Of a DNA stretch of 64,000 nt, positions 15,611-63,830 are shown piece after piece. The notes under the pieces were generated by a model, which saw nothing but the letters and a program-made list of their open reading frames with translations, searched no databases and had not been told where the DNA came from. Made by a program: the position numbers and the translations under genes. The stretch's first letter is position 1, and every line of letters starts with the position of its first letter. The DNA is taken from contig BDDD01000567.1 in NCBI GenBank assembly GCA_001972305.1, positions 372,001 to 436,000 of the forward strand, written 5' to 3'. This DNA comes from Cephalotus follicularis (lineage: Eukaryota > Streptophyta > Magnoliopsida > Oxalidales > Cephalotaceae).

Positions 15611-15985
15611 CCGTCGACGCCCAGCTTTAAAGCGTCTGCGCTTTAGCTGACGGTGGAGACAAGAACAAAGCGTCTACCGGTGAAGCACTTGGAGAATTGG
15701 GAATAAAGCTCAAAACGTCGACGCTCAAAATCAAGCGTCTGCGCTTTGAGGAGCAAAGCGCATACGCTTAGTGCAAAGCGTCTGCCGTCTCAGGCAGAGA
15801 AGAAATGGCAATTAAAATGTGCCTAAGCGTCGACGCTCAAGGCTAAGCATCCACGCTTTATCTGGCGGTCGACATCATCAAGTGAACGCCTGCGCTTCAA
15901 GCAGAGAATTCAAATCTGGGAGCCCCAACGGTCACATGACCGTCGACGCTTTGGAGGGGTCCGTCGAAGCTTTGATCGTCTGCAG
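15611..15985. repeat. GCGTCGACGC motif array in S1 LTR, blocks of four at about 20 bp
   Basis: Cores start at 15613, 15634, 15646, 15672; 15717, 15737, 15760, 15780; 15829, 15849, 15868, 15888; 15942, 15963, 15978. Variants include GTCGAC, GTCTGC, ATCCAC and GCCTGC, usually flanked as AAGCG...GCTTT. Blocks restart at 15613, 15717, 15829 and 15942, a higher-order period of 104-113 bp. The array ends 89 bp before the TATA box. Confidence 0.75.
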
Positions 15986-16066
15986 TAATTTCTGACAGAT
16001 TTAAGTGGACATTCCATTAAGGAATTAATCCTAAACTAATCCAAACGGATCTATGAGGCAAGAAGC

Positions 16067-16073
16067 TATAAAT
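16067..16073 (+). promoter_or_regulatory. S1 LTR TATA box
   Basis: TATAAAT in the context AGCTATAAATGG, on the element strand, between the motif array and a leader-like stretch. A transcript starting about 30 bp downstream is inferred. Confidence 0.6.
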
Positions 16074-16530
16074 GGACGAATGTTTTGAAGTGAATAGGTG
16101 AGAACAACACAAGCAAATCAAGCATACAAACATCATTCAAGAAAATCACACTCAAAGCATTCAAATCAAAGAGCTCAATCAAAAGTCTTATTTTTGCATT
16201 TTAAGCCTATTCTTGTTCTCACTATTTTGAGCAATCCTATATTGTAAAATCCAACCTTGTGAGAGGTTTAGTTACAAACACAAACCATTTACACTTTGAT
16301 TGTAATAGGGGAGTGAACCCTAAAAAATCTGGGGAGTGAACCCAAAGTGAGTTGTAAGTGATTGAGGTCAATCACCAAGGTGTAACCGAATAGCACCCGT
16401 AATTGTATTCAGAGAACTAGTGGAAACTCAAGGAGATCCTTGGGAAAAGTGGACGTAGGCAAGAGTTTGGCCGAACCACTCTAAGCTAGTGTTTGCACAT
16501 CTCTTGATTAACATCTCTACAACTTCAATC

Positions 16531-17778
16531 ATGGTAAAATCAAAAGGTCTTGAACAAGGGCAAGGGTCCAAAGGCAAGACAAAATCGGTTGGGAAGAAGG
16601 GGAAGGAGAAAGCTGCTGCCACCACCTCCTCCACCACTCCTGACGTGAGTACTCCTAAACCTAGGTACCCAGAAGTATACTTTAACCGAAAAATACTAGT
16701 AGGTAAAGTCCTTGACTTTGATTTTTGTTCTAGGGAAGGATTTCCTATAGTAGAATGGATTAGATTTCAGGGTATAGAACCAATGTTTTCTTTGCACAAA
16801 GCTAGTTATCCAGACCTAATGAAGGAGTTCTATGCAAAAATTAGTACTAGCTCTTCATACATTTCGGCTGGCATAAGCACCATTGTCAAAGGAAAATCCA
16901 TTGATCTTCATTTAGACAAACTTTATACCATTTTGAAAATTCCGAACCTAGGTGTTAAAAGCTGGAATCAACGCACTTGGGTCTCTGGTGATGGTTTTGA
17001 TAGACTTGACTGTGTTCGAACCTTATTCGGTGAAAACGCTGATCCGCTTCAGCGAATGTACACTAGGAATTTACCCCTGCACTATAGATTTTTGCACCGT
17101 GCGATTTGCACGCATATCCTTCCTAAGGCCGGTGGGTTCGATGAGGTAACCCATATGAAAGCCTTTACTTTGTCCCATTTTGTCACTAGCCGACCAATCA
17201 ATGTTCTCTTTCTTATTGTCAAATATATGCATTCGATACACGACCGGGAGAATGCAAGGTTAGGTTATAGCAATATCATAACTAGGATTCTCGAGTGTTG
17301 TGGTGTGGACTTCACTGGAGAGGTGCACAATGACCTTCAAAGTTCTGATAAGCTGGGAAAAGGAACCCTCGCAAGAATGGGGTTCAAAAAGCACAAGAGG
17401 ACAGGTGCTTGGATTCCAAGGGGCGAGGATTCAAACAGAATAGAGCAAGAGGAGGGAGAAGCCGAGGCTGGTGAAGAAGTGGAGAATGTACCTCTACAGA
17501 TCGAACCACCGCCTCAACAGATTCCTGATGACCATCCTCCAAGAAATAGGATGGATGAGATGTTTGACGTAATCACAGGCATGCAGAAGAACATTGAGTG
17601 CATGAAGAGGCGAAAAAAGAGTTTTCTCAAGAGATTTGCTGATGCAGGCCTTATTGTGTATGACGGCCTCTTATCTCCATCCTCGAGCCACGACGATGAT
17701 CCCCCAGACGATGCGGCAACTGATGATATGGAGGGTGATCTCGAAGGAGATGATGCGGGCACACGCATGGAGGACTGA
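16531..17778 (+). CDS. Putative plant transposon protein (PF20167-like), 415 aa, in S1
   Basis: The open frame runs unbroken from the ATG at 16531 to TGA at 17776-17778. I prefer this start to an in-frame ATG at 16489 because 16489 lies in the LTR; 16531 is 18 bases after the LTR end. Residues 1-45 are basic and low-complexity (K, G, S/T). Residues about 45-290 resemble the putative plant transposon domain that Pfam calls PF20167 (VLDFDFCSREGFPIVEWIRFQG, YPDLMKEFYA, FVTSRPINVLFLIVKYMHSI, RILECCGVDFTGE) by memory; a search is needed. Then come an acidic stretch (EEGEAEAGEEVE), a basic helix (MKRRKKSFLKRFADAGL) and an acidic D-rich tail. No catalytic motif is evident and the molecular role is unknown. 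It occupies the gag position of a SIRE-like element, so it may be a captured or structural protein. Confidence 0.7.
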   Translation: MVKSKGLEQGQGSKGKTKSVGKKGKEKAAATTSSTTPDVSTPKPRYPEVYFNRKILVGKVLDFDFCSREGFPIVEWIRFQGIEPMFSLHKASYPDLMKEFYAKISTSSSYISAGISTIVKGKSIDLHLDKLYTILKIPNLGVKSWNQRTWVSGDGFDRLDCVRTLFGENADPLQRMYTRNLPLHYRFLHRAICTHILPKAGGFDEVTHMKAFTLSHFVTSRPINVLFLIVKYMHSIHDRENARLGYSNIITRILECCGVDFTGEVHNDLQSSDKLGKGTLARMGFKKHKRTGAWIPRGEDSNRIEQEEGEAEAGEEVENVPLQIEPPPQQIPDDHPPRNRMDEMFDVITGMQKNIECMKRRKKSFLKRFADAGLIVYDGLLSPSSSHDDDPPDDAATDDMEGDLEGDDAGTRMED

Positions 17779-18481: not shown

Positions 18482-19215
18482 AAACACAAGGTATATATAT
18501 AACGAATATATATAAGCAATCATGCCAAATGACTACAATCAATCACTTTCAAGAATACCGCTCAAGGGTACCATCAATCACTACACTGGGTGGGTGCTCA
18601 ACCGATACACCTCCTGACTACCACCATGCACTCCGATGTGATAGACTAGGTAAACACTTATTGCTGCCACTTGGGGAGGAATATAACACTCACTGTCTGC
18701 AAGGTAGATAAATTCGGTGAATAAGCTAGAGCCAACTCCTGGCACATCCGCTCACCTCCGTAGTCAGCGGCATACTCCATGCCACTAGACTATTGGAAGC
18801 ACTTCAATCACAATCAATCACTGAAATTACATATATATATATATATATTATGTAAAATATCACTAGTTTTCTTCTGAGGAAGCGATTAAACACTTCACTG
18901 ACTGTGCCTCGCTTGGAGGAAACAGTAAAACACTTCACTACGTTTCCCTTTTGAGGAAACAAAACAATACACTTAGTTTTCTTTTAAAAGCAGTAATAGA
19001 AAACCTTGACTATGCATATAGCATCAATAAGTAAATCACTTGAAATCACTTGATAGATATGTAATATCTATACACTTTCAATTATATGCAATCACTCAAT
19101 CAATACAATCATTGGTGGTTCTAGGAGTCAAACCACATAAATGCAAGCAAACATATGCTCATAATGTAAAACAGTCACTATTGGCGTTGACGTGTATCTT
19201 AGACGTCAACGTTAG
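18482..19215 (-). repeat. Y1 LTR, piece 2 of 4
   Basis: Resumes in register with Y2 at AAGCAATCATGCCAA (compare 46874) and includes AATACCGCTCAAGGGTAC. It contains a TATATATA run (about 18830-18850). It ends at GTTAG (19211-19215), the TSD of solo LTR V. The first two cores of the Y1 motif array lie at 19186 (GTTGAC) and 19205 (GTCAAC). Confidence 0.82.
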
Positions 19216-19376
19216 TGTCACACCCGGGATTTTCATTGAATGTAATATTGTATTTTTCCGATGTAATCTATGCTTTGAATTAATGAGAATTATGGATTTT
19301 CCCACTTTCTGATGTTAAAGCTTGCAAAAAAGAATGGATAAAGGAAATTGTGGGAAGTGTGGAAACAGGGCGAGCA

Positions 19377-19500
19377 GCCGACTATCAGAGAGAGACAGTC
19401 GACTGGACCCCCTTAAGTGGCACCAGCCGACTACTGGGAGGAACAGCCGACTGGAACTGTCGGTAGAGGCAGTCGACTGCCGAGGTGAGACAATCGACTG
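19377..19500. repeat. CAGTCGACTG motif array, V cluster 1
   Basis: Three pairs: cores at 19377 and 19398, 19426 and 19446, 19472 and 19493 (GCCGAC, GTCGAC, GCCGAC, GCCGAC, GTCGAC, ATCGAC). Spacing within pairs is 20-21 bp. Ends about 115 bp before the TATA-like sequence. Confidence 0.75.
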
Positions 19501-20053
19501 TCATGCGTCAGACAGCATAACGTGTGCACCAGACCTGTCTTGGCAGTAAGCAAGTGGTTGATGGTTATGTCGGCAGAGGGAGAGAGAGAGAAAAGGGGAA
19601 ACACGTTTTTCCCATAAAAACACACATTCTTCTCCTCTTTCCATCAACATTGCATAGAGATGGAAGAAATAGAGAGTTTGTGAAGGAAAAAGGAGAGGAA
19701 AAGAGAGAGACAAGTTGAGCCAAATGTCCCATACCTGAACCGGGGGCTTGGAGGCTCGAACCAGTGGAAGAACCGAGCTTGTTGGAGTTGTTGGAAGGAC
19801 CTGGGAGCTTTGAACGCCTCGGATCCAGGACTTAAAGAGGTGGATTGCAATTCCTATCTTGGAATTCGAGGCAGGGGATTTTATAATTGTGGTTTATGTT
19901 CGGTTATAATGGATGTTCATAGATGAAATGCATGCAATAGACTGTGATATGAGCATGTACATGTGTTGTTGTTGATGAAAGCTCTATTTTGAATGGATTG
20001 GGATGAGAATTGCATGTATTTTCTGCTGTGTTTGTGCACTGCCCGCAAGACCA

Positions 20054-20435
20054 GCCGACTGTCCAAAGAGGACAGCCGACTATTCGAGGCTAGCAGTCGA
20101 CTGTTCAGTGAGAACAGCCAACCACTGGATGGGAAACAACCGACTGTGCAATGGATTCAGTCGATTATTCATGCATTTTAATGGAGGACACCTCCTGCTG
20201 TTTGATTAAGCCGACTGCTGAGAGAGAGCAGCCGACTGTAGATGTCACAACTGACTGTTTGGGATGACAGTCGATTGTACATGTGTTGCGTTACCCGGAT
20301 TCGCTGAGGTGGTGAGGCTGGGGTGGGTAGCGATGTAGAAGACGCGTACTGTTCATGAAGCAACAGACTGCCAAAATAGGCCAGTCGACTGTTGAAGGAA
20401 AACAATCGACTGTCAAGAGAAGACAGCCGACTGTT
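20054..20435. repeat. CAGTCGACTG motif array, V cluster 2
   Basis: Fourteen cores in three groups: 20054, 20075, 20096, 20117, 20139, 20160; then 20210, 20231, 20250, 20270; then 20363, 20384, 20405, 20426. Spacing within groups is 19-22 bp, mostly 21. The typical copy is ACAGCCGACTGT; the linkers are unrelated. Confidence 0.8.
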
Positions 20436-20550
20436 GGGGACTGACCTGCACTTTGATCATATGTTTGCATTGCATTTTGATATGAAATGAATTGCTGATT
20501 GGAATATGAATGATTCTAAAGTGTTTTATTCATTTTAGAAATGTGTACAT

Positions 20551-24864: not shown

Positions 24865-25663
24865 TGTTGTCAGGACCCGTTCCCGCTCTAACTATAGGAC
24901 ACGTGTCCTACTGGGGATGGCGCTCCTTTTGCCAACAACCCTCTCAAACTAAAACTCCCCATGAACCTACCACGCAAAAATCCCGTGGAGAAGGCCTGGG
25001 CTAAACGCGCAATAAGCATTAAACCCCGGAAGAGAGAGCTCAAGTGCTTCTCACGATCTCTCTTAACAACCTGTGGTCCAACATGCCCGGGGACACCCTT
25101 TGTCCTTGTGTCCTTCTCCTTCCCGGGCTAAAACATCCTTAGCTCAAGTTCCAAAACGCTGTGCATAACTAACACCCGGGGAGAAACCAACATAAGCACC
25201 CGGGGAGAAACCCACGCAGACCTCACGTGATCACTTAAACTCCACACTCGAGACCACACATACATATATTGTCCCCCGACGTACTACCTCCTCTGCATGT
25301 CCCTAAGGATCACATAACAAAACAGACATCAAACGCACCGTTTAACTTAAAACATAAAGCACTTAACATATAACTCGTCACGGGCCTTACTCTAACATGG
25401 CACCCCTGGCCACTCTCTCCAGGGACACCTTCCCTGCTCCCTTGCCAAAGCCTAATGTTTAGCATAAAAATGTGTTGTTTTTAATGCGTTATTTATGATA
25501 TTTTTATGCTTGGAATAGGCTACTTTGGTTGTGTTATGTTGATTTTCAGATTTAAGTGCTAAATGACCAAAGTGCAAGAATACTACCCAAAAGTGTGCAA
25601 AATAGAGCTTGAAAGTGTAAAGATTGAAGAATGGACAAATTCGGCAGAAAATAGAGTAAACAC

Positions 25664-25956
25664 GTCGATGTCTATCGTACACATCGATGTCTTTGCTGGG
25701 TTTACACAAACACGTCGACGTCTTTTGTTAGAAGTCGACGTCTTTTCTGGGCAATGTAACTTATCTTGAAGAGCTATGATCAAAGCGTCAACGTCTTTCA
25801 TCATAGGGATCGACGTCTTTGTGCAAATTCGACCTGTAACTTTTGGGCCAGAAGGGATCGACGTCTTTCACCTTAAGTGTCGATGTCTTTCATGCGCATC
25901 TCAGAAAAACGCGACTTTTACAAGAAGACATCAACGTCTTTCATAAGAAGTCGACG
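25664..25956. repeat. GTCGACGTCTTT motif array in OS, pairs at about 20 bp
   Basis: Cores at 25664 and 25683; 25714 and 25734; 25787, 25809 and 25828; 25857 and 25879; 25930 and 25950. Spacing within groups is 19-22 bp; groups begin 50-73 bp apart. The typical copy is GTCGACGTCTTT. The array ends 96 bp before the TATA box. Confidence 0.78.
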
Positions 25957-26045
25957 TCTTCCTCTGCAGCAGAATAGAAAGATTAGATTTTTGCCAGATT
26001 TTGTGACTAGGATTCATTTATTTCCGTTTTTGATTAGTTTTGTAG

Positions 26046-26053
26046 TATATAAA
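26046..26053 (+). promoter_or_regulatory. OS TATA box
   Basis: TATATAAA in the context GTATATAAACAATG, just downstream of the array. The sense strand of OS is inferred from it. Confidence 0.55.
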
Positions 26054-28916
26054 CAATGTTATTTCGGCCAAAACAAGTATGTAATATGTAAGTAGGGTAG
26101 ATTAGGGTAGATTAAAGAGAGTGTGTGGAAATAGCCACCTCCCTCCTTAGTTTAGTTTCATTATGTTTTGTAACTAGTTTTTAGGGTTTTGGGTTAGAAC
26201 AAATCCTAGATTGTTATTGTTTCAATTCCATCAATAAAAAAATCCTTCAATATTCGATTTGTTCTTCAATATTTCTGCCTTCGCACACACTTTGTTTGTC
26301 TGATTAAAATCCACACTCATCTTGTCGGTGAAGCTGAAAGTTTGTGAATGAATGAAGCTTAATTCAACGGAGTCTACTCATACGATTTGTCGCAACGAAC
26401 ACACTTCGTATAGACCTAGCATGACTACTCATTCGTCTTGTCTGATTAAAATCCACACTTTGTATAGACCTAGCGTGACTACTCATACGTCTTGTCATCA
26501 CCGTCGTACTCCGTATAGACCTAGCTGCCGTTGTTTATCAAGGTATGATCGTTCAACTTCATGGAATGTTCAATACAATCTACGGTGAGTTTCTATACCC
26601 TAAACTGCTTTTTAATTATATTTTGTTATCTTTTATTCATTAGTTTTTAATAGTTTATCTTGAAATTGGTATACTTCGCCTAGGTTGGATAGATTATAAC
26701 TAGTTTACGTTTCCCTGTGTTCGACCCATTACTGCAAGATCCGCACACTTGCGGCTATAAATTTTAAAACATTCTTTTTAACAGTGAACACCTAACATCA
26801 TCATCACCCTGGGGACACCCTGTCTCCCTGGGGTAAAGCTCTTTAAACATGATCCGTGCTCCCAAGCATAAACATAACACCCTTGCTGGGCTATCCCCCG
26901 CTAGAAACCCAAGGGCTCCCCAGCACGCGGGACAGACCTGATAACTAAAAACTGATAACATGAAATATCCATGAAATTACAAAATAAAAAAATCTACTAT
27001 CTCAAAACATCCATAAACTTTCTTGAAAGTATAAAATCATTACATTTTTGTGCCCTGGCATAACATACACTGCCTCCCCTGGCATGGCAAAAGAATAACA
27101 TAACTTATCTTTCTTTACATCAAAGGAATATCATAACAAAACATCTCCTGGCAACCCTACAACAAAAAGGAGGTAAGGGAACCCGAAAGAATGCCAAATG
27201 CAATGCTATGCTAAACGCCCGAGCTGATGCTCCACGGTGCTGAGCTTAAAAACTACCTCATTACGCTATCTACTGCTTAGCTGGAGGGTTTCCTCCGGCT
27301 GGCTGGTCTACAAAATAATCTGTTAGGGGATTAGTCCAACTGACTAAATGACCGAGAACAAAACATCCTCTGTTGCATTCATAAAAATGAATGCACTGAA
27401 GAAAACTTACCATGAACATGATTAATATCCCAACTGGGGAAGTGAGCTATAAGCAAAATATACGTCATGGCATACAATAAAGACCGCTCAAAGTACTTGA
27501 AGAAAACTTTCTCTTTTCTCTGCTTAGATAGTTCTAGAATATTCATGAAAGCTGAAATAAACATAAGAATACAACTGATTAAAAGAAAGAGATATGAAAA
27601 AAGAACATGGGTCCTTCTTGGCTAAAACCCAAAGAGGACAACCAAGCTGGAAACTGGCTTTTCTCTGATGTGCTTGCTTTGCTGATTACATATATATACT
27701 TGCCAACTTATAGTGGCCTGAGCTGAGCTGGTTTTTGGCCTAAGCTGAGCTGGGCAGCTTACTTGCCGACTCATCTGTACTTTCTGTTCTTTTGGCCTAA
27801 GCCGAGCTGGGCAGCTTACCTACCAACTTATATTTACTTTGCTTACTGCATCACTGAATTCTGGGGTGGGGACTAAAGTCCGCGGACAAGGTCCTCCTCT
27901 AGAAAACCTACTGAAGGACTTTCTATACTACTATATCTGATAACTTAGCTGAACTGTACTCAACCGCTATACATTTTCCTAGGAACAATGCAAGGAGATC
28001 TAGGTATGGAACCCGGGGACAGACTCACCCAACTTCTCTTCCTGTGATGATAGGCTGAGGAGGAAGGAGCTTGTACATGTGTGTTCGGTTGCGCTCAAAC
28101 CCTGTACACTGTCCTAGCCACAATATGAGGACATCCAAGTATGAAACCTGGGGGCAGACTCGCTCAAAAACCCATCATAGACAATAGGTACACTGAGGAG
28201 GGGGGGTGAACACATACACGTCATCGTATCTGAAGATGATCGATATAGAGGATACATAACATCTTGCTCTGGGCTCTGGGAACACTCCACTCAAAAAGAA
28301 TGGTTAACATAAGACATTAGGGAAAACAACTTCCCATCATAACTCACTTACTCAAACTGAAGCTGAGGAGAAGGATTCTCAAAGAAAATAAGATGAACAA
28401 TAAAATGCTTTAAAAGAAAGGATGTCCCACTCACAGTTCTTGATACTTCCTTGGACGTTAAGGTCCCTTCTACTCTGCTACTCTCTTCCTCTGGCTTGTC
28501 TGCTTCTTTCCTTTACCTTGTCTGCCTCTCCCATTACTGCGCTCAGAAAGCTTCAACTACTACTGGTCCAGGCGCAAGAATGAGAAGAAGACGAAAAAGA
28601 AAACTAGACTCTCTCTCTCTCTCTAAAACTCTCTGATCTACTGAAGCTAGAAGAAACGATATCCAAATCTCAAGATATCTCCACACTAATCCCAACTTAA
28701 ACCGTCATACGTCTTGGAAGTTGTAATCTTCCTCAAGAAGCTTTGCACTTATATCCTCCAACTTCCACAAATCTCACTTAAACCTTGGCTTAACATATCA
28801 TTCTCTTATCCATTATTACACCTAAGCCCAAAAGACAAAATCATCATATCATATAACTTTAAATAAAAAAAAAAGAACTCTTAAATCTCTAAAAAGATAC
28901 GGGGTATTACATACAT

Positions 28917-29944: not shown

Positions 29945-30071
29945 CTAATGCGTCGACTTGTATCTTAGGCGTTAACGCCATTCACCCGTCAATATCCAAA
30001 ATGGGCGTTAACACATTAAGGAAGGACCTTAGGCATCAACGTTCGATATTGGCATCGACGCGTAAGGTAGG
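29945..30071 (-). repeat. Y1 LTR, piece 3 of 4, with motif array
   Basis: Short piece between the V and U insertions. Cores at 29952 (GTCGAC), 29971 (GTTAAC), 29988, 30007 (GTTAAC), 30035 and 30054, spaced 17-19 bp with one 28-bp gap. They continue the array begun at 19186, showing that V landed inside it. GTAGG (30067-30071) is the TSD of U. Confidence 0.8.
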
Positions 30072-30355
30072 TGTAATTCCCTGCTTGTTCGTATATGTGT
30101 TTTGTGGACTTTTATATATATGTTTGTTTTCGGGCTTTTTAATTTGTTTTATTTTTTTAAGTTCGGTTGCCCTGTGTCTTAGGCTTATGTGATTTGGGCT
30201 GTTTGATACTAGCCTGAATTTTGGATATGTTAATGCAATGTTGGGTTGGGCCTATATTCATAATTTTTATTTTATTAAAACTTTATTCTATTTTACAATT
30301 TTGAAATTATTAAAACAATTCCCTTTTCTTTTATTTCTAAAATCTCCTAATTTCT

Positions 30356-30397
30356 ATTATTTATTTTATTTTATTTTATTTTATTTTATTTTCCTTA
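30356..30397. repeat. TTTTA microsatellite
   Basis: About seven uninterrupted copies of TTTTA, in the LTR of U; the 3' LTR has a shorter run near 37600-37622. A similar run lies in Z1 near 42822-42851. Confidence 0.85.
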
Positions 30398-31264
30398 TTC
30401 TTTTTCTGTCCTTCTTTCTTCCCTCTCTTTCTCCCGTAACTCTCTCTTTCCCAATCTTCTCACACGTTTTCAGTCTTATTTTTTCATTTTTATTGCCTGA
30501 AAATCTTCTCTTCTTCCTTATGTGATTAGATTATGTTTCTAAATTCATTATTCTTCCCTCTATTCTCTCTTCTTTTTCCCGTTTAAGAATGCCTTTGTCA
30601 TTGTGATATGTCAACCGAATTCCAAAGCCTATCACTACCGAAATTGCAAGTTGGAATTGCTGTGTTCTTGTGTTGATTCATTCTTCATCAATATCAGGTT
30701 TGTTGGTGTCTTTTGTTGTCTTTTGGTTATCTTTTCTTGGCAAGCTTTGGGTTGTGTTGTCTTTTCCTTTGTTCCTGTTGCACATCCGGTTAACAATTGT
30801 TCAGTGGTATTCTTTCTGCTGTTTCTAGGTTCTTAATACCATTAGAGGTTAGTGAATCCTGCTGTGATGGTTTATTCGATTTTGTTATGTTGTTTTCCTG
30901 TTGAATAGGGTGTTAAAATTTGTTTTGGTCCCTGCAATTTTATATGTTCTGTCATTGTATTTCTAAGCGTGTCAGCATGTTTTAAACACCATGGATATGT
31001 TATAATCTGGTTTTAATGTCTGCAAGTGGTAGTGGACAGAAAATTGGACTTATATGTGTGCATATATACAGGCTCTTTCATTCTTTCTCTTGAAGTTAAC
31101 CATTGCCAATATGCGATTCCATGTCAATTCTGTGTTTTTGTGTCATCTAAACATCATATAATGTCTCATGTATATGTTCATATGTCTCCGGTATGATGTC
31201 ATTCATGTTTGGGTAGTTTTCGTATTGAAAATGGTGTGTTTCTGCTGTTCTGTCGATCAGAACA

Positions 31265-31461
31265 GTCGGCTGGTTTTTTTATTGACAGTCGGCTGGTTTG
31301 GTTGAGCAATTGGCTTTTTTTTATGAATAGTCAGCTGGTTTGGTTGAGCAGTCGGCTGCAATATGAAAGCAGTTGACTAATTCTGTTGTGTAGTCGGCTG
31401 GCCCTGTTGGATAGTCGGCTGCCAAGCTTCCACAGTCGACTGGAGCTCTGTGACAGTCGGC
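31265..31461. repeat. CAGTCGGCTG motif array in U 5' LTR, exact 21-bp period
   Basis: Ten cores start at 31265, 31288, 31309, 31330, 31351, 31372, 31393, 31414, 31435 and 31456. After the first 23-bp step, eight consecutive steps are exactly 21 bp. Cores are GTCGGC, ATTGGC, GTCAGC, GTTGAC and GTCGAC, mostly within CAGTCGGCTGG; the 9-11 bases between copies vary. Confidence 0.88.
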
Positions 31462-32884
31462 TGTTTTGCCCATAAAATTTCTGTTTTCAACTGTTTTGAT
31501 CCGTTTGTTCTCCGAATCAATCCTAGTCTTTTCTAAACACTGTAATGAGTTTGTTTAATGTCTTTAATGTTTCTTAGACCATTATATGAATGGTTTTGGG
31601 TGTCTTTTAGATCGTTGTGCTTCAAAGGGGAGTTTGAATTAATAATCTTTCCGTAAGTGCTTTTGTGAAATGCATAAGGTACGTATTTCTATCGTTCTTT
31701 GGCTATCTGATTTTATCGAACTGAAGTCAGTTTTGTTTTATGCTATGTTCCTCGTTTTATGAACTGGACTATATTTCGGAAATGAAGTTGGTTTTTGACA
31801 TTTTATGAATTTAAATGTTCCTGACTTTATTTTTTGTGCTATGATACGTTACGATATGTTATGAAAATATCATCTCTTCATCACAAAAATAAATGAGTTG
31901 ATGTTTTGACTATGAAATGTAGGTTATGATATCGTTGTGAACGACTTTCAAATATGTTGTGAAAGCATATCTATGTGTTTTTAATTGATTTTGATAAATC
32001 GATGTTTTCTAAATGATTGCATACTGAGTATTGTACCCACCCATGGGGCGTACCATAGGCATGTCGTAGGCCTGGCACGGGGACATGACACTTCCGTAGC
32101 GGTGTGATTAGTCTACGGCGTGTCTAAATGTTATGAATAAATCCCATGAGGTGGATTTATTGATCCATTTTGTATGATAGAGGCGTATGAATCGATTCTA
32201 GTTTATGGATATGTGATATGAAATGATATGCGAGAATTGACTTGTGTAGTGTCGTACACTGCAATTCTAGTGGGCATGTGGAATTAGCGCCTCCCTTGCC
32301 AATATATGTTATGAAATGTGATACGATATGTGGCTCAGTATGACTTTATCAATCATGAAATGATGTTTGAAATGTTTTGTAAATGTTTCAAAAGATATGA
32401 AATTGGTATTTTATGGAAATTCGAATATGATTAAACTCTTTTAATTAAGTTTCATTGAGATCTTACTGTTTTTAAACTTATTGTTTACTGCTTTTACTTT
32501 CATTATCCGTACTGAGGTTTGCTCAGTCGCGTTTTTGTTTTCCATGTGGCAGGTTATCAGGAGCAGCGGGGGAATGTGTGAATGAGAGATGACCACCTTT
32601 ATGTCATGGATTCCTGGGAGTGTGATCCTTATGTGTCTTTGGTTTTAGTGGTCATGAACAATATGCTAATTTGTTTTATGTTTCGGTATTTTACGTTCTG
32701 AAATATGTTAAGTTTTAAGTTTTGAACAATTTTTCAGTTATGCTATGACCGCCACGTTTTGGCTAATAAAGGAATGTTTATGTTCAATTAAAGTTATGTC
32801 TATGTTCAGATAAGTTATGATATGCTATGATATGTTTTGTTATGACATGTGACGACTCCCGCCGTCTGTGGGTGTTACAGATTG

Positions 32885-40104: not shown

Positions 40105-41125
40105 AACCTTAGGCGTCAATGTCGTCCTTTTAGGCATTGATGTCCTGGAAACCAGTAGGTTAGTCAACGTCATCCTAGGCGCCAACGTAAATCATCCTAA
40201 CAGTGCGAAACATCAACTATTTCCAGTTATGGCGTTAATGTCAATCACTTAGTTGTCAACGTAAATCAAACGCAGCATGACATTCAGTCAATAATCACTT
40301 CAATCAAGCATGGATTCAACACTTAGGATCAACATGCAAGCATACGCAATCACCATAACACAATATACATGTCATATTTTCAAAAACATGTCATAAACTC
40401 TACATCTAATTCCAAGTTAGGAATCGAAAGTCCACTTCTTTAAGCTCTAATCCGATCCTCAGCTTCTCCAAGCTTCAAGATTTGGTTCGATCACTCCAAG
40501 CCCAGGTTCTAATCTCTGATCCTCAAGCTTCTTCTCACAGCTCACAATGGCGGGACAACATCTCCCACATTCTCTCCTCTTTCAATGGTGTGAGGCTTGG
40601 AGAAGAGGAGAGGATTTTTAATGGAGTCTTCACCTCTCTCTCTCCTTCCTCACGGCATGGCAGGGATGGCAGATCGATGTGACCTCCATAAATGCCTCTC
40701 TCTCACATCAGTCAACACAGAGCACATGGGGGAGTGTGAGCCCCTCATGCATATTCTGTCCTTGTTTAACTTACTCTGCCAATAGTTTAGGTGTCAACAT
40801 CAACGCAGGGTGTTGACGCGTTGACTTCATGCCTTGGCGTTAACAAGTTCCCCTTAGTCGCGTTAACGCCTATCCCCTTCAGTTCACCAGCAATGGACGT
40901 TAGCGTCCTCACATGGCATCAACGCCTTAAGGCAAAAGCCTTAAGCGTGTTTCAATGTTACTTGGCGTCGACATCAATCCATGGCGTTGACGTGCAAGTG
41001 CCCTGATTCCTTTACATTCAACACTTAGACTTACCTTCCTTCAATATCCATAACAATAAGCTAATTAAAAGGATAATTAGCAAATAATCTCATATCAATG
41101 TATAATTTTATTTATGAATTGTACA
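40105..41125 (-). repeat. Y1 LTR, piece 4 of 4, with motif clusters
   Basis: Continues Y1 after U. Array cores at 40115, 40136, 40163, 40181, 40212, 40234 and 40255, then a second cluster at 40793, 40812, 40839, 40862, 40899, 40918, 40967 and 40986; typical form GGCGTTAACGCC or GGCGTCAACGT. The end near 41125 (AATTGTACA) is set by weak alignment with the Y2 LTR start and by the TG...CA rule. The five bases after it (ACATA) do not match those before 15070 (ATGCA). Confidence 0.68.
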
Positions 41126-42615
41126 ACATACATCGAATATGTTTTATTCTGAACATAAGTTTTGGTTTTCATTATATATTACTGCTGTTGATCATTAGAT
41201 TGTTCAAAACCTTGTTGATTATTCATGAAAACTGCCTTAGAAATGCAATACCAGAAAATTGTTCCAAGTTGTGTAAAAACCAGAGAATATGTTTTAATAA
41301 TTCTTATTGCCTCATGTAACCTGAAAAGCTATATGTTTATACATTTGAAATATTAATCTGGTATTCTCAACATCTGAGTCATGTTTTATAACCTGCATAC
41401 AACTGTTTTATGGATGCATGTTTAAGAAAAACTAAGTTTTTGCAACTATTTTTGCGTCTTGCATGTTGTTGAGCGTTGTCTGCATTTCGTTTTTGTCGAA
41501 GTTTGGGGCTTAACCGTCGACGCTTTGCTTTGGACATCGACGCTTTCATAGTGTTTTATCAAGCATTGCTTCGACACTTTGTTCAGCACTTAGTAATAAC
41601 GTTGTTCTTAAGGCGTCGATGCTTTTGACAAGAACATCGACGCTTTCTTCGTATATTGTTATACCTTCTGTCGATGCTTAGTATTAACTATTGCATTAAA
41701 GCGCCAACGCTTGGTATTAAAAACGTCAAGGCTTTGTGTCTTTTTGTACCTGTTAGGTTGTAATACCTGTTTGGTTATTTGTATAGGATCCCAAAATATC
41801 TGTGGTGGATTTTAGGGTGTCTCGTTGTGTGCTTGATTCATTCTGAGTATTGTTAAGGTTGAGCAACTAAGGTATGGATGTTCGTTCCTTGACATATTCC
41901 TATGGGTTTATGAACATGTGTGGATTTTTCGTTTTTTGATATTCCTTCGGTTTTATGAATTCTGTTATGTTTTGAATTTTTGATATGTTTTGGAATAAAG
42001 TCAGCTTTAATATTTTTATGAACAGTGTTAAATATTCCTGACTTTATAAATTCAGTTATGATTTCATTTCCAAATTTTATATGATCATCTCTTTTATTGT
42101 AAAATTAAAATGAGTTGATTTTCGAAAATGAAAACATGTGCAAATGTGAATGTTTTATCTTTTGATAACGATTTTAGATATGTTCATATATACATATATA
42201 TATATATATATGTTTGAATTGACTTTTAAAATCAATATTTTTAAATTGTGACATACTGAGTTTTTGTACCCACCTATGAGGCATACCATAGGCATGCCCT
42301 TTGGCACGGAGGCATGACACTTTCCGTGGCGGTGTGATTAGTACATGGCGTCTCTCTATGTTTGTGATATCCTTTGTGGAGGATTATGGATTCGTTATTT
42401 CTGATAGAGGCGTATGGGTCGACCCTAGAAATTTGTGATATGTTATGTTGTGAGAATTGATTGTGTAGTGCCGTACACGTCATTTCGTGAATCCCTTGCA
42501 TATATGTGATCTGATATGTGACATGTTATGATGCTCAGTATGGAACTTTATGTTTCGCAAGGTATGGATTTGGTTTTATACGAAAATTTCTGAGGTAATT
42601 TATAAAGAATGTTTA
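41126..42615 (+). mobile_element. T: gypsy LTR fragment
   Basis: Non-coding. From about 41450 it parallels the middle of the U and Z1 LTRs: array, then GGTATGGATGTTCGTTCC, AAAATGAGTTGAT, ACCATAGGCATGCC and GGCGGTGTGATTAG. Neither true end is visible: the left end abuts Y1 and the right is cut by Z1 at GTTTA (42611-42615). It also holds a TATATATA run (about 42186-42211). Confidence 0.65.
41495..41730. repeat. CGTCGACGCTTT motif array in T
   Basis: Cores at 41495, 41516, 41536, 41570, 41615, 41636, 41670, 41703 and 41725; short intervals are 20-22 bp, longer ones 33-34 and 45. The motif (ATCGACGCTTT, GTCGATGCTTT) resembles that of the Copia elements S1 and S2, although T is gypsy-like. Confidence 0.7.
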
Positions 42616-46213: not shown

Positions 46214-46412
46214 GTTATGGTATCAGAGAATATGTTTTGTTCCTTAGAAGACATATATAGGTTTGACTGTGAGATAGGTAGACATTTGGGTCAGGGCTAT
46301 TTTTCAATAGTCATTTCGGTATGTCCTTTTTATTCCAGTTATCTGTCTCTCTTTCTTTTCCCCATCTCGGTTTTGTTTCGTAGATGACACATAGAGGCAG
46401 GCGACCAAGGAA
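46214..46412 (+). mobile_element. Z1 primer site, leader and gag start
   Basis: TGGTATCAGAGA (46218-46229) is the tRNA-Met primer site. The leader runs to an ATG at 46381 reading MTHRGRRPRN, parallel to MTRRIGRLRN in Z2 (57734). Y2 is inserted ten codons into gag, so nothing more of Z1 is visible. Confidence 0.8.
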
Positions 46413-47595
46413 TGTCACACCCCGCCTTACCATTTCCAATTAGGCACAAGCATATATGGTGATATCAGAATTAAGATATAATATTCCAGCATTCCATTCA
46501 ACAATTCATAAATAAGCGGAAGCATTCAAAAGCCGGAATATAAAATACAAGTCATCCGCACGCACCCCATACTACGTGCAGGTACAATCTGACAAATTAT
46601 CCTTGTACATAAGGAAGTGAAATAACAACACGGGGTATGAACCGTTCAATACAAAAATACAGTACATCATATAAAATAACAACCTTAAATTGAAATAGAA
46701 GCTCTCCAAGCTTCAGTAGCAATCTCCGATCGTCCTTGCTTAATCTGAAATTGTAGGGGATAGCCGTTGTCCTCACTTGGCTAAGTAGGAAGATAATGCA
46801 TGCTAAGGAATATATGGATGCAACATGTATGATAGTTTATATTTAAAATATCATTTAAGTATGCCAATATATAAGCAATCATGCCAAGTGGCCATAGACA
46901 GTACATATGCAAGAATACCGCACAAGGGTACAATCAATTCATACAGTGGTTGGGTGTCACATGTCGCTACCTCCTAGCACAAATTGCGCACCACCTATCT
47001 ATCACTCTACACTCCGAGATGATAGATAAGGTATCATTTACTACCGGCGTTAGCGGGCAGTTTAACAATAAGATCTGCAATGCAGATAAGTTTGGGTGAA
47101 TACGCTGGCCAACTCCTGGCACACAGGACCACCACCGTAGTCAGTGACCTCTACCATCACTCGACTAACGGCAAGCATAGACAATCAATTCAATTAATTC
47201 AGTTCAATAATATTACATATATATATGATATGCAAGATAAAAGTTGTTTTCTTTAGAAACATTAACAATTCATTTATCGTACATCTCATAGGAGGAAAAC
47301 GATATCAATACAGTAGTGGTTCCCAGTTGGGGAACAAAACAGTAGGTACCTCTCATAGGAGAAAAATCAATAGTTCTTTTAACAATAAGCTTTCATTTTG
47401 AAAATGATAGTTGATATCATGAATTGTGCATATAGCACTTAGTTTGTTCAATCTTTGGAAATATGGAAACAATAAGTTTATAACAATCACCAGTATATAC
47501 TGATTAACAGTGGCATATACAGGAACAATAGCAAGGACAGTAGCAATTCAATTGGGCCCAACAGGACCTATATCATAATTTTTTAACCCAGGACA

Positions 47596-47705
47596 GTCGG
47601 CTGTTCTCAAGAACAGTCGGCTGTTTTGATTGAGCAGTCGACTGTTTTCTCTTAACAGTCGACTGGATAGGGTTGAGTAGTCGACTGCCATGAAGAACAG
47701 TCGTC
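47596..47705. repeat. CAGTCGACTG motif array, Y2 cluster 2
   Basis: Six cores at 47596, 47616, 47637, 47658, 47680 and 47700, steps 20-22 bp (GTCGGC, GTCGGC, GTCGAC, GTCGAC, GTCGAC, GTCGTC). Confidence 0.82.
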
Positions 47706-48627
47706 TACTTCTGTCCAGAAATGCAGGCAGTAGTAGGTTATATTTCAAAATCCAATACCATTCCAGTCAATGCATGCAATCAAGCAGAAAATAAACATAC
47801 ATGATATGCATACTCATATCTTCCAAAATATGTCATTACCCCTACCTCAATTGCTTATCCCAAAATCAATTGGAATTGATCTTTCTCTTTGAGTTTCCAA
47901 AGCCCTTTCACCAAACAATCCTTTAATTCCAGCAGAATCAATCTATACAAAGCATGTTTGGAGATTCAGTCACTTAATCAGTAGGTTTGACTAAATGCTT
48001 AAGGTAATCAGTAAGCATATGTCATGACAACTAACAACAACCACAATTTGAATTAGAGTTATTTAAAAACTTTCTAAGCTTCACATCCATATTCTTACTC
48101 CCTCTCATTACCATTTCCATTGCAATTCTAGGATTTGCTAACCTTAACCATGTTAACAGAAGATATTAAACGTCCTCCTAATTACACTATCATCACATTA
48201 GCAGTGAGTTCGGATTGAGAACTTACCAAGCAAAATCCAAGCTTCAATTCTCTTTCTTTGAGCTCTCCAATTCCTCAAATGCAAGCTTTCACCAATTTTT
48301 CCAGTCACTCTCCTCTATCTCCAGTGTTTCTAACACTCACACACAGTTCTAGCAGTTGATATAAAGGCTTAGGGATCTTTGAATTTGCCAGATTACCTTA
48401 CTCAGTTTTCTCTCATCACATGCACTTCTCTTCTCTCTTCTTTCTATCTCTTTCTCACCTTTCTCTTCTTTCCATTCTGTTTTGCAGGTTGCAGGTCTGC
48501 AGAGAACATGCAAGCACTCCTTTTTGCATGCTCTGGCAGCTACTGTCACGCATGACACCTGCCCACCATGCATTCCCTTTGATTCTATCACACAGGCATG
48601 CACAGACACCTGTTCAGTACCGCTCCA

Positions 48628-48702
48628 ATCGACTCTCTTAAGCGGGCAGTCAACTGTCCACTCACGCATCAAACAGTCGACTGTTCCCCTGTGACAGTCA
48701 GC
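48628..48702. repeat. CAGTCGACTG motif array, Y2 cluster 1
   Basis: Four cores at 48628, 48649, 48676 and 48697: two 21-bp pairs. The cluster is about 175-250 bp from the LTR start on the minus strand, the same relative place as cluster 1 of V. Confidence 0.78.
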
Positions 48703-48878
48703 TGTTTTGAGTTGGTTTAGGGTTTCCTAAGTTTGATTTTCACCAATTTGCACCTCCATTCATCCCAAGCATTTACCAATCACAGAAATTATAATAATTG
48801 GACAAATAACTCAATTAAAATGTATATTTTATTTTAAAATTGGATCAATATACATTAATTGAATTTGCGGTTATTACA

Positions 48879-55153: not shown

Positions 55154-55271
55154 CATATTTTTTATTCTAGCCGTTGGTGACGAAATAGAGCCGTTGGAGA
55201 AGTCTTGGAAATTGTTGCACAAAAGTTGGCTCTTTAAAACAAGTTCTGTCATTGTTCCAGCCGACCAAAGC

Positions 55272-55526
55272 GTCGACGGTCTTGCCTAAAGTGTCGGCGC
55301 TTAGGTTACCGTTAGGAGTTAAATTTGAATTTTCTCGCTTTGTCTGTCAGCGCTTTGATATTGGAGTCGACTGTTCGCATAAAGCGCTGACGCTTTAATC
55401 CTAAGCATCGCCGCTTTGAGTCCTTCAACTAATTTTGCGCTTCACTGGTTTTAACGGCAGACTTGCGCTTCTCAGGCGTCGACTTTTTGTCTTAAAGCGC
55501 TGACGCTTTGATTGTGACCGTCGGCG
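55272..55526. repeat. GCGTCGACGCTTT motif array in S2 left LTR
   Basis: Cores at 55272 and 55293; 55346, 55366, 55386 and 55407; 55456, 55478, 55499 and 55520. Steps within blocks are 20-22 bp; blocks restart about 110 bp apart. Array begins about 120 bp from the TATA box. Variants include GTCGAC, GTCGGC, GTCAGC, GCTGAC and ATCGCC. Confidence 0.78.
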
Positions 55527-55641
55527 CTTTGCTCTGTTTCTGCACTTCTTATTTTTGTTTATCTTTTCTTGCACATAAAGCAGCAAAGTTAAATACAAAT
55601 TTGTAATCATTAAAACTTAGGATTGAGACTAAAAGTCAAGA

Positions 55642-57557: not shown

Positions 57558-57562
57558 AGTTA

Positions 57563-58228: not shown

Positions 58229-58739
58229 ATCAAAATAGTTTGTGAATGGACCGATGTGACAGTTACTACTTATATATGCTGGTATGGGACAATATATGTA
58301 TTTAGTCAACCCCGCGATGTCAACTACATATGGAGTTTACCTCTACATTCCTAGTGGAGTGCTAAATGGCTATGAATCATAAACGGATATGGATTGTAAA
58401 TTGGATATGGACCGTAAACGGATATGAAATGAAATAGATATAGCATGGTCATGGATTGATATGGATAAAAGGCTTTGGATGATGACATATGGTGGAGTTA
58501 CTGATGATAGATTGTGTTATGGCTTATATGGATATGATATGGCTTTGTTCACATCTTTTATGCTAGATATGAATCTCACATGATCGATATTATATATATA
58601 TGCTACACCTCTGCACACATTTATTGCTTATGATTTTGGATATGGATTTGTTTATGTGGTTTTTGTAGAGTACCTTTTGTTTATAAACTAAATTGTATAG
58701 ATTTATGAGACTTGTTATGTATAATAGGTAACTTAAGAG

Positions 58740-59290
58740 ATGTGTTTATTCAGTTATCGACTTGCCGACATGTGGCAGTGCTTATGATATGTGTGTTGAT
58801 GTATTGGATATGCATAAGTTCATACTTGAGAGTTGGAATGATGATTTCGATTTAAATTGTGGTTTACTAAGGGCTGAGCCCATTTATAACTGATTGTTCC
58901 TCCTTCGGGAGTGTGGATATAAATTGTGTTTTCTTTTCAGGGGGCATATGTCCGATAAACGAATACTACATGCCCAATTTTCGGGAGATTATAAGAGTTA
59001 GAATGTACTCAATTGATTATTTCAGTGACATGATTATATTTTGGATGCTTATGATATTATTGGATATGATTAAGCCAATCTTTGAGAGTATTGAAAGGAC
59101 TGCCTTTCACGTGCAAATGGTATTTTTGATTTAGTTGTGATATAGTCTGGTGTGGGCTGAACCCCAGCATATAGATTGTGATAAGATATGAGATTTGATC
59201 TCCAAACACATAAATTGTGGTTTATTAGGTGGCATGGAGTCCGATAAACGAATACATCATGCCCGATTTTCGGGAAATCCTAAGAGTATG
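58740..59290 (+). repeat. W-LTR-related segment inside Z2
   Basis: Matches the 3' third of the W LTR (about 2905-3190): ATCGACTTGCCGACATGTGG, TATGTGTGTTGATGTATT, AGGGCTGAGCCCAT, GTCCGATAAACGAATAC. A second partial copy of the last block is at 59220-59285. Both hold CCCGATTTTCGGG, able to form a 5-bp hairpin. Confidence 0.82.
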
Positions 59291-59417
59291 GTTGTAATGG
59301 TTATCCATACTGTTTTACATATGGTTTGAGGTTTTCGCCTATACGTTATGGTGTGTGTGCCGTAGGGATTATCTGTTTGCTTCAGGTTAGTAGCTGTTTA
59401 GATTTCGGGACGAAATC

Positions 59418-59436
59418 TTTTTAAGGGGGGTAGAGT
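59418..59436 (+). other. Z2 polypurine tract
   Basis: TTTTTAAGGGGGGTAGAG after GGGACGAAATC, the chromovirus 3' end. Confidence 0.85.
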
Positions 59437-61661: not shown

Positions 61662-61666
61662 ATTTA

Positions 61667-62743
61667 CCTCATTTTCGCTTTCATTTTCACTTGTATCTTC
61701 TTCCAAAGCCATGAGAGCAAAATTTACAATTTCCTCATCACTTTCCTCTTCGGAGCTTAAGGAATCACTATCATCCCAAGTAGCTACCATTGCTTTCTTC
61801 TTCTTGGAATGCTCTTTGATGAATTTTTCTTTCTTCTTAAGATTTGGGCACTCGTTTTTGAAATGGCCCGGCTTTTTGCATTCATAACAAGTTGGCTCTT
61901 CCTTCTTGCTTGATTCTACATGTGAGGGAACTTCTTTAAAGCCTTCTTGCCCTTTTGACTTTTGAGGAACTTCTTGAATTGAGAAGTTATGAGTGCTACA
62001 TCTCCATCTTCATCACTTTCGCTTTCTTTCTTTGAGGCTTTAAGAGCAATTGACTTCTTCTTCTTGACTTCCACATGCTCATGATTCTTCATTGTTGTCT
62101 CATGTGTCATCAAGGAACCTAGAAGTTGTTCGAGTGGGAGAGTGGAGAGGTCCTTAGCCTCCTCAATTGCCGTCACCTTTGGAGTCCAACTCTTCGGCAA
62201 GCACCTTAAAATTTTCCTTACAAATTCTTGGTTAGAATATGATTTGCCAAGATTTTTAAGGGAATTAGTAATAGTAGTAAAGCGTGTGAACATGTCACTT
62301 ATACATTCATCATTATTCATCATAAACAATTCATACTCAAGTACAAGCATGCTTATTTTCGATTCCTTTACTTGATTAGTACCTTCATATGTGACTTCTA
62401 ATAGATCCCACATTTCTTTTGCCGAATCACAAGAGGATATCCTATTAAATTCATTTGGGCCAACGGCACAAAATAACACATGTTTAGCTTTGGAATTTAA
62501 TTGAAGCATTCTAAAATCATTATCATTATACTCATTTTCGGGTTTAGGAGAGACTACTCCTTCTATAGTTCTTGTGGGCATCCTAGGACCATTAACAATT
62601 ATATGCCACAATTGATAGTCAAGGGATTGTAAAAATATAGTCATTCTAGTCTTTCAAAAACTATAGTTATTTCTGTCAAAGAACGGAGGTCTAGTAATGG
62701 AGGAACCTTCTAGTCCTATGTTTAGATTCATTTGGTTTGCCAT
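61667..62743 (-). pseudogene. gag: S2 gag, N-terminal part (UBN2 core)
   Basis: Minus-strand ATG at 62743 starts MANQMNLNIGLEGSS, a SIRE/Copia gag beginning. The UBN2 core (62644-62060) includes FLQSLDYQLWHIIVNGP, CDSAKEMWDLLEVTYEGTNQ, SKISMLVLEYELFMM and ILRCLPKSWTPKVTAIEEAK. Lysine-rich and acidic linkers follow, then a knuckle near 61900-61860 (CYECKKPGHFKNEC) and an acidic E/S tail up to the Z2 insertion. Particle protein of the lineage; fossil. Confidence 0.88.
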
Positions 62744-62784
62744 GGATCTTTATATCTCTAACAATTAAGAATTATGAGATAACC

Positions 62785-62796
62785 TCTCTGATACCA
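62785..62796 (-). other. S2 primer-binding site (tRNA-Met)
   Basis: The minus strand reads TGGTATCAGAGA two bases inside the right LTR. Confidence 0.88.
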
Positions 62797-62798
62797 CT

Positions 62799-63830
62799 TG
62801 TTGGTAATGTATGGCAACTCTTAATTACTAAACTAACAACAATATGTTTGCGGAATTAACAAATTAAGATTATGAAACTAAACAATCACAAGAACACTTG
62901 TAAGTAAAGAGATAAAGGATAGAGAGTGTGCAAATGAATTTATAGTGGTTCGCTAAAATCCGTGCCTACGTCCACTTTCTCAAGAATCCCTTGAGATTCC
63001 ACTAGATACCACTAGCAACCTTTGATTTTCGGCTTACGGGTGCAAATCAAAGTAAACCACCTTACACTTGATTTTAGGTTCCGGGTGCAAATCAATCAAA
63101 CACCTTACAAGGGTTCACTTCCCTCTTTTACAATGGATAATAGAAAACGATTTGTGTTGTGTTTACAATAACCTCTTAAAGGTTGGATATGAAAGTGATA
63201 GAATGTTACAAGCTTTGGATGTGAAAGTGTAAAACTCTAGCTTGTTGTTCTTTTGTAGTTGTGCAAGTTTAGCTTGGATGTTGGATGATCAAGAGTTGTG
63301 TTCCTTGTTGTTTTAATCTTCATTCTTGGCTTGTATTTATAGCATTATTTTGATTCTAGCTGTTGGTGAAGAAATAGAGCCGTTGGAGAAGTCTTGGAAA
63401 TTGTTGCACAAAAGTTGTCTCTTTAAAACAAGTTCTGTCATTGTTCCAGCCGACCAAAGCGTTGAGGGTCTTGCCTAAAGCGTCGGCGCTTAGGTTACCA
63501 TTAGGAGTTAAATTTGAATTTTCTCTCTTTGTCTGTTGGCGCTTTGATATTGGAGTCGACCGTTCGCATAAAGCGCTGACGCTTTAATCCAAAGCGTCGT
63601 CGCTTTGAGTCCTTCAACTAATTTTGCGCTTCACTGGTTTTAACGGCAGACTTGCGCTTCTCAGGCGTCGACTTTTTGTCTTAAAGCGCTGGCACTTTGA
63701 TTGTGACCGTCGGCGCTTTGCTCTGTTTCTACACTTCTTATTTTTGTTTATCTTTTCTTGCACATAAAGCAGCAAAGTTAAATGCAAATTTGTAATCATT
63801 AAAACTTAGGATTGAGACTAAAAGTCAACA
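62799..63830 (-). repeat. S2 right (5') LTR
   Basis: 1032 bp, ends AAAAGTCAACA. Pairs with 54610-55641. TATA box on the minus strand at 63334-63342. Confidence 0.93.
63459..63720. repeat. GCGTCGACGCTTT motif array in S2 right LTR
   Basis: Counterpart of 55272-55526 with the same spacing. Several of the differences between the two LTRs lie in these cores, mostly at CG dinucleotides. Confidence 0.75.

Follow-up and report, generated by a model that had tools for sequence, protein, structure and literature searches.

The DNA analysed here is a single 64-kb window of the Cephalotus follicularis genome (GenBank assembly GCA_001972305.1, contig BDDD01000567.1, positions 372,001 to 436,000 of the forward strand), and the features of interest are clusters of short, near-palindromic motifs with a GTCGAC-like core that lie in the long terminal repeats (LTRs) of its retrotransposons. 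All results come from this window and from the literature, and positions are counted from the first base of the window. The window is a stack of nested LTR retrotransposons, whose anatomy was reconstructed from repeat pairs and target-site duplications (TSDs), and motif arrays were found in nine LTR families, here called A, C, D, E, OS, T, V, W and Y1. Pfam matches indicate gypsy for A, B (gag only), C, D and OS and Copia for E. No tRNA gene was detected in the window with ARAGORN.

On the Copia side, element E (54610-63830, minus strand, TSD TTAAC; probably S of the initial annotation of this DNA) is Sirevirus-like, with LTRs at 54610-55641 (3') and 62799-63830 and a Copia gag (Retrotran_gag_2, 1e-32) in the open reading frame (ORF) at 61919-62653 on the minus strand. 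Its 3' LTR array (55270..55527, minus strand) holds nine sites of type CAAAGCGTCGACGCTT, and the copy in the 5' LTR lies at 63459..63716 (minus strand). Within E, a 242-residue ORF (56250-56975, minus strand) gave a weak homeobox-associated leucine zipper match (1.4e-05, below the curated cut-off), and tandem repeats of 30/60 bp and 17/18 bp occupy 58006-58428. The W LTR (15485..16520, plus strand, end approximate), previously taken as gypsy-like, aligns along its length with the E LTR and was classed as Sirevirus-like Copia through that homology; neither a Copia gag nor a second LTR was found for W, and a 439-residue ORF at 16459-17775 (plus strand) matches Transposase_32, a putative plant transposon protein. 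The W array (15611..15970, plus strand, type CAAAGCGTCGACGCTTTG) consists of ten sites, nine with a neighbour at 18-23 bp, separated by steps of 21, 38, 45, 20, 23, 69, 20, 93 and 21 bp. The close steps in W are thus 20-23 bp and not about 30 bp as first described; an array of that longer step sits in element A, outside the interval then considered (15611-63720).

Element A (245-10182, plus strand) is a gypsy element with an LTR pair, a gag match and pol similarity, for which no TSD was found. Its 5' LTR array (1369..1528, plus strand, type CAAAaCCGTCGACGCTTT) has four sites by the 10-mer criterion and six relaxed cores 28-32 bp apart, at 1371, 1402, 1431, 1463, 1491 and 1521; the 3' LTR copy lies at 8273..8432 (plus strand). 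The A 3' LTR also contains a 39-bp tandem repeat (9049-9191) that Tandem Repeats Finder did not report in the 5' LTR. Element C (30072-40099, plus strand, TSD GTAGG; probably the earlier U) is a gypsy chromovirus with a 5' LTR at 30072..32880. Its 5' LTR array (31263..31463, plus strand, type CAGTCGGCTG) comprises ten units, with one step of 23 bp followed by eight of exactly 21 bp, and its 3' LTR array (38498..38676, plus strand) comprises nine, with one step of 22 bp followed by seven of 21 bp, so that the sister arrays differ by exactly one 21-bp unit. T, a C-like LTR relic from about 41.5 kb with uncertain limits, carries seven sites of type CGTCGACGCTTT (41514..41710, plus strand).

A further group of gypsy and gypsy-like LTRs includes D (probably the earlier Y2), a gypsy element and probable chromovirus with its 3' LTR at 46374..48878 on the minus strand. 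In this LTR, cluster 1 (48626..48704, minus strand, LTR offset 175-253) has four sites with steps of 21, 27 and 21 bp, and cluster 2 (47594..47707, minus strand, LTR offset 1172-1285) has six sites at 20-22 bp of sense types CAGCCGACTG and CAGTCGACTG. Reverse transcriptase, RNase H and integrase zinc domains were found in both C and D, together with a chromodomain at 1.2e-06 in C (above the cut-off) and at 0.002 in D (below it); judged by sequence, C and probably D have the gypsy pol with a chromodomain at the integrase end that defines Ty3/gypsy chromoviruses. The Y1 LTR (plus strand, gypsy-like on the strength of its resemblance to the D LTR) is split into 19216..20550 and 28912-29939 and flanked by the TSD GTTAG (19211-19215 and 29940-29944); cluster 1 (19375..19500, plus strand, LTR offset 160-285) has six sites of type CAGCCGACTG, and cluster 2 (20052..20433, plus strand, LTR offset 837-1218) has 14 sites, 8 of whose 13 steps are exactly 21 bp. 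Between the two parts of Y1 lies B (20551-28911, minus strand, TSD TACAT), and within B the single LTR V (25456..26790, TSD CCTAA, plus strand as inferred), whose array (25662..25957, plus strand) has 11 sites of type ACGTCGACGTCTTT; V was placed in neither superfamily. Gag and pol pieces at 10293-15044 (minus strand) were assigned to OS by adjacency and strand; its 5' LTR, of inexact limits, is split by W, Y1 and C, and its array is accordingly in pieces on the minus strand, at 19184..19212 (where Y1 interrupts the LTR), 29950..30061 (type GCGTTAACGC) and 40797..40993, with weaker sites also at 40113-40241.

Several of these LTRs are related. Stretches of 65-69% identity place T with C, and OS and Y1 with D (over only about 230 bp for Y1 and D), and the distance from array to shared LTR body is similar within groups (C 212 bp and T 158 bp; D 250 bp and OS 215 bp). 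The nine elements initially annotated are therefore not nine independent cases: W and E, D, OS and Y1, and C and T share LTR stretches, and 54610-55641 and 62799-63830 are the two LTRs of one element. At these similar array positions, D and OS carry different motif types, as do C and T.

The clusters of near-palindromic GTCGAC-core motifs lie where they had been annotated, and their core is strongly over-represented. Over the whole window, 37 copies of GTCGAC were counted where 6.3 were expected (50 dinucleotide shuffles gave at most 11), and it is the top palindromic hexamer by ratio. With second LTR copies masked (52,675 bp left), GTCGAC sites with at most one mismatch form 37 pairs at 19-23 bp against 2.5 expected (maximum 8 in 100 block-wise shuffles, z 15.1), and GTCGAC ranks first of the 64 palindromic hexamers by z in this test, the next, ATGCAT, reaching 5.4. 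The hexamer count and pair tests are independent of the site lists, which were drawn with array-specific consensus strings picked after inspection, so that tests based on the lists are descriptive. A scan for repeated 8-mers in 400-bp windows also recovers the arrays, among many AT-rich words. Dyad symmetry about the motif centre is present in most of the nine groups and weak in T.

The sites do not, however, form one motif with variants, as had been proposed. Sense consensus sequences are CAAAGCGTCGACGCTT in both W and E, CAAAaCCGTCGACGCTTT in A (four sites), CGTCGACGCTTT in T, ACGTCGACGTCTTT in V, AAAACAGTCGACTGTT in D, CAGCCGACTGT in Y1, ACAGTCGGCTG in C and aCGTTaACGCC in OS. A CAAAGCGTCGACGCTTT type is found in W and E, in gypsy A and in gypsy-like T; C, D and Y1 share a CAGTCGRCTG type, and V and OS have types of their own. 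Matrices were scanned at a threshold giving one match per 20 kb of shuffled sequence. The W+E matrix found seven sites in T and three in A (expected 0.08 and 0.16) and a single site in each of V and OS, and the A+T matrix found nine in W, seven in E, five in V and two in OS; neither matrix had a match in C, D, Y1, B or F. The C/D/Y1 matrix had a single match in E and did not hit W, A, T, V, OS, B or F. From these cross-matches, one motif type crosses the border between Copia and gypsy; the suggestion of a motif shared by both superfamilies is supported for this one type. The gypsy side of the sharing is carried by A, through its gag and pol similarity, and by T, through the similarity of its LTR to that of C.

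The centre of the OS motif (29969-30061 and 40797-40993) varies (TA 6, CA 6, TG 3 and CG 1 among 16 listed sites) and its outer CG dinucleotides are mostly kept; the list was drawn with a GTTAAC consensus, and GTCGAC is also present in OS at 29952 and 40967. CpG observed/expected is higher in the array than in the 500-bp flanks in 10 of 11 segments (W 1.21 against 0.37, E 1.58 against 0.33), a statement about observed/expected only, and is not raised in the C array (0.59 against 0.71). The core of the dehydration-responsive element/C-repeat (DRE/CRT) is RCCGAC. It was considered as a common site and rejected: GCCGAC occurs on the sense strand of Y1, D and E, but in W, V, T, A, OS and C the consensus is a different one.

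Of 83 adjacent steps of at most 80 bp in 12 segments (D cluster 1 left out), 52 measure 19-23 bp, as compared with a mean of 10.8 and a maximum of 23 in 20,000 random placements, which bears out the 19-22 bp previously given as the usual step. Across 13 segments, with five weak sites dropped, a neighbour at 18-23 bp was present for 81 of 97 non-redundant sites. W and V often show such pairs, roughly half of the OS and T sites belong to one, and C, Y1 and D contain longer runs.

The arrays of W, E and V lie upstream of a match to the TATA consensus, with the last site centre 101.5, 122.5 and 93.5 bp from it, respectively. The match is at offset 583 of 1036 in W and 490 of 1032 in E (TATAAAT, sense) and at offset 591 in V (TATATAA). 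Y1, D and OS each have two clusters per LTR, and in Y1 and OS a GA-rich, TATA-like stretch was seen by eye between the two; that transcription starts in this stretch is a guess.

Outside the motifs, most arrays have little in common. With motifs masked, 3 of 90 linker comparisons (45 pairs in two orientations) exceeded z 3: W with E (9.9, homologous LTRs), Y1 cluster 1 with reversed OS (7.0, in an alignment that seems to be made up of short matches linked across masked positions) and V with reversed C (3.3). No pairing of W or E with A or T passed z 3. The description of linkers as not conserved is therefore correct for most pairs of families, the similar linkers of W and E standing against it. 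Inside each of the seven arrays measured, likeness is 63-86% among motifs and 31-57% among linkers. Between sister LTRs the order is reversed, with changes at 20 of 219 motif positions against 13 of 378 linker positions (pooled, Fisher p 0.005; E 10/90 against 3/168, p 0.002; C 7/89 against 3/90, p 0.21; A 3/40 against 7/120, p 0.71), the remainder of the LTRs being changed at 19/774 in E, 145/2580 in C and 194/2785 in A. Since motifs change more than linkers between sister LTRs, the likeness of motifs within an array does not reflect low mutability. For W and E, identity reaches 77% in the motif columns as against 58% in the linkers. In this one comparison of one family pair, the values fit motifs that mutate readily after insertion and would be kept in the active lineage.

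Taken together, the arrays are probably LTR enhancers composed of cooperative palindromic sites for a dimeric host DNA-binding protein, a reading that we infer from sequence and hold with moderate confidence. Each palindromic site would bind one dimer of a sequence-specific host protein, and dimers on neighbouring sites 19-23 bp apart, about two helical turns, could touch and load cooperatively. The clusters in W, E and V end where the enhancer of a U3 promoter would be expected. Units would be gained and lost in whole steps while linkers diverge, and the similar array place and changed outer motif bases of related LTRs suggest changed affinity within one protein family. The initial annotation had suggested that a dimeric protein could load on one face of the helix; the motif symmetry, the neighbours at 19-23 bp and the TATA positions of W, E and V are consistent with the protein, and the longer gaps do not agree with the single face.

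Several observations weigh against this reading or narrow it. Sixteen of the 97 sites have no near neighbour (A 4/4, OS 8/16, T 3/7, W 1/10), and gaps of any other length than 19-23 bp show no 10.5-bp periodicity (R 0.06, n = 33), from which it follows that the rule concerns neighbours and not helical register across the whole array; global helical phasing is ruled out on this ground. The TATA positions are consensus matches, with a second match further on in E (offset 887) and V (offset 1301), and a strict TATA match at the distance seen in W, E and V is absent from C, D, Y1 and A; T and OS were inspected by eye. In D and Y1, cluster 2 may be situated beyond the transcription start, on its downstream side. 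Within the seven arrays, linkers resemble one another somewhat more than letter shuffles do (0.36 against 0.29 in C; 0.57 against 0.29 in V, there partly owing to CTTT after each site), so that tandem duplication contributes to the regular step. The motif-linker difference between sister LTRs rests mainly on E, the W-E LTR stretch upstream of the array is as conserved as the motif columns (79% identical), and E has a gap where W has its first three sites.

Duplication of this kind could be the whole story if the arrays were minisatellite-like expansions that grew neutrally and have no function. Tandem Repeats Finder detects arrays with 20-22 bp units in C, D and Y1 as well as in part of W, a linker is duplicated in C, and the sister LTRs of C differ by a whole unit, all as such growth would leave them; motifs are nevertheless more alike than linkers within arrays, and similar motifs recur where linkers are not detectably related, which makes purely neutral growth very improbable. 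The arrays could instead have spread between LTR families by recombination or template switching, in which case their sharing would be descent, an account compatible with enhancer function. The occurrence of the same CGTCGACGCTTT type in Copia W and E and in A and T would suit such transfer, as would the additional masked-linker match of Y1 with OS, although the latter is made of short chained matches. Because masked linkers gave no match of W or E to A or T, and because descent is clear within groups for W and E while the motif types of D and OS and of C and T differ, we consider transfer doubtful.

Two further explanations concern silencing. Neighbouring palindromes could pair in the transcript and form RNA hairpins, which would either supply small-RNA silencing or draw it in, an account put forward for palindromic clusters in maize Sireviruses, over which a small-RNA excess is cited in PMC10760457. 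The sense RNA of eight of the nine arrays folds better than dinucleotide shuffles (z -2.9 to -6.3; A 5' array -1.6), and that of Y1, D and E does so too (z -3.2 to -5.0). Any DNA palindrome array folds well, however, and the hairpins may be a consequence of the motif. A hairpin account should favour the sense strand, yet the asymmetric base (GTCGGC/GCCGAC) preserves G-U pairing in the sense RNA of C alone; for Y1, D and E it preserves such pairing in antisense RNA, which is the more stable (antisense against sense, Y1 cluster 2 -98.8 and -79.6, E -101.0 and -84.1, D -62.7 and -49.1; in C -49.9 and -94.0). With the asymmetric base split in this way, there is no consistent favour for the sense strand, and a hairpin or small interfering RNA (siRNA) source is unlikely. 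Nor is there support for the idea that the step reflects the 21-nt phase of secondary siRNAs, as steps vary from 19 to 23 bp and longer gaps are unphased. Alternatively, the arrays could recruit a demethylating or insulating factor and so act against silencing or as boundaries, for which the Su(Hw) sites of Drosophila gypsy offer a comparison. Clusters at two LTR places in Y1, D and OS would suit this, and dense arrays of short non-coding motifs with repeat turnover and family-specific motifs are the targets of VANC in VANDAL elements (PMC5735166). VANC motifs are described in one orientation, though, and the word 'palindrome' is absent from the main text of that paper. Among 30 of 60 ORFs scanned, no anti-silencing protein of the VANC type was recognised, for which Pfam may lack a model, and the sharing of one motif type by Copia and gypsy suggests a host protein; we judge this explanation to be distinctly unlikely.

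Returning to the enhancer reading, a broader version of it, which we put forward only tentatively, is that Sirevirus-like Copia and gypsy LTRs converged independently on the sites of one host protein family, used as cooperative palindromes two turns apart, and that related LTRs switch between paralogue-specific versions (CAGTCGRCTG, GCGTCGACGC, ACGTCGACGT and GCGTTAACGC) at a similar position, the whole forming an exchangeable activation code. If gypsy LTRs carry the same kind of box with strict neighbour spacing, the search for the protein becomes tractable, with one core, several unrelated promoters and a spacing rule to work from, and the shared activity of unrelated families in the same cells could find an explanation.

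The closest known relatives of these arrays are in Sireviruses, whose LTRs contain palindromic repeated motif (RM) boxes; these lie within CpG islands and precede the TATA box (Bousios et al. 2010, PMC2829016). According to that survey, RM-bearing elements have at least 8 box copies, 117 of 127 LTR copies have them in the upper half of the LTR, and 12 of 13 RM motifs have a CGG-CCG signature, with Tnd-1 as the exception. The initial annotation named no earlier description of a phased motif shared by Copia and gypsy families; palindromic LTR motifs shared between elements are on record, though among Ty1/copia elements, to which the survey was confined and within which it calls the motif Sirevirus-specific. 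W and E fit the RM boxes in copy number and position, with arrays that occupy the upper LTR half and precede a mid-LTR TATA match. The polypurine features of Sireviruses are also present in E as judged from its sequence: AGGGGGAG followed by AT directly precedes the 3' LTR (complement of 55642-55651; that LTR copy starts with TC, not TG), and four exact AGGGGGAG copies (55644, 55798, 55872 and 55919) are accompanied by AGGGGGAA at 55827, the published average being four octamer copies (PMC2829016). Two exact copies lie in W (18233 and 18394). The Copia part of the finding is thus likely to be a member of this known kind, lacking the CGG-CCG signature.

The Vitis Sirevirus box CGGTCGACCG (Table 3, PMC2829016) has the same GTCGAC core, and the Tnd-1 box ACAATCGATTGT differs from ACAGTCGACTGT at two symmetric positions (PMC2829016). 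The consensus motifs of the present arrays are centred on GTCGAC, GTCGGC/GCCGAC or GTTAAC and are without the CGG-CCG signature, and unlike the Ty1/copia RM boxes they also occur in gypsy LTRs; no spacing rule for RM boxes was seen in PMC2829016. More generally, the cis-regulatory regions of transposable element families are often arrays of sometimes palindromic repeats (PMC10760457), a statement that, as given there, involves neither a motif shared across superfamilies nor spacing. Decamer strings were also searched in the literature, with no plant-retrotransposon title among the matches listed.

Paired CAGTCGRCTG sites were found at 9 loci in viral contigs and 59 in prokaryote genome contigs, the query itself selecting such spacing; 20 of these 68 loci have at least three sites within 250 bp, some six or seven, and no link to plant LTRs is claimed. 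In three bacterial contigs (L014 2928-3047, L024 819-975 and L049 612-782), six to seven CAGTCGRCTG-like palindromes at 21-23 bp or multiples, a spacing again selected by the query, are iteron-like. A 162-residue reverse transcriptase piece of D found no relative in the viral contigs.

Repeated boxes of other kinds are known from plant LTRs, and the BII repeat of the tobacco Copia element Tnt1 is about 31 bp long. Tnt1 promoter boxes of this type bind defence-induced factors (PMC3316501), and they differ from the present sites in being a different motif confined to one family. Tandem repeats are described in the U3 of retroviruses and Tnt1 in PMC3601003, from whose main text 'palindrom' and 'repeated motif' are absent. 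The CLSY3/REM motifs that recruit Pol IV resemble the arrays in being short repeated motifs bound by plant DNA-binding proteins, at siRNA loci (PMC12270911); as a match they were rejected, being repeats of TTTTGCTTAT and AAGCGGAT with one-base spacers that by eye are not alike (PMC12270911). The targets of VANC are likewise dense arrays of short motifs that evolve as tandem repeats and differ between families, with the motifs YAGTATTAY and AGTTGTCC/AGTTGTAC and a protein encoded by the element itself, a DNA transposon (PMC5735166). Among the matches listed from open-licence papers, none described arrays of this kind in gypsy LTRs, a type crossing the Copia-gypsy border or a neighbour rule of about 21 bp. 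Palindromic LTR boxes as such are known from Sireviruses; what appears to be new in print is the presence of such arrays in gypsy LTRs, the sharing of one motif type by Copia and gypsy elements and the spacing of neighbouring sites at about 21 bp.

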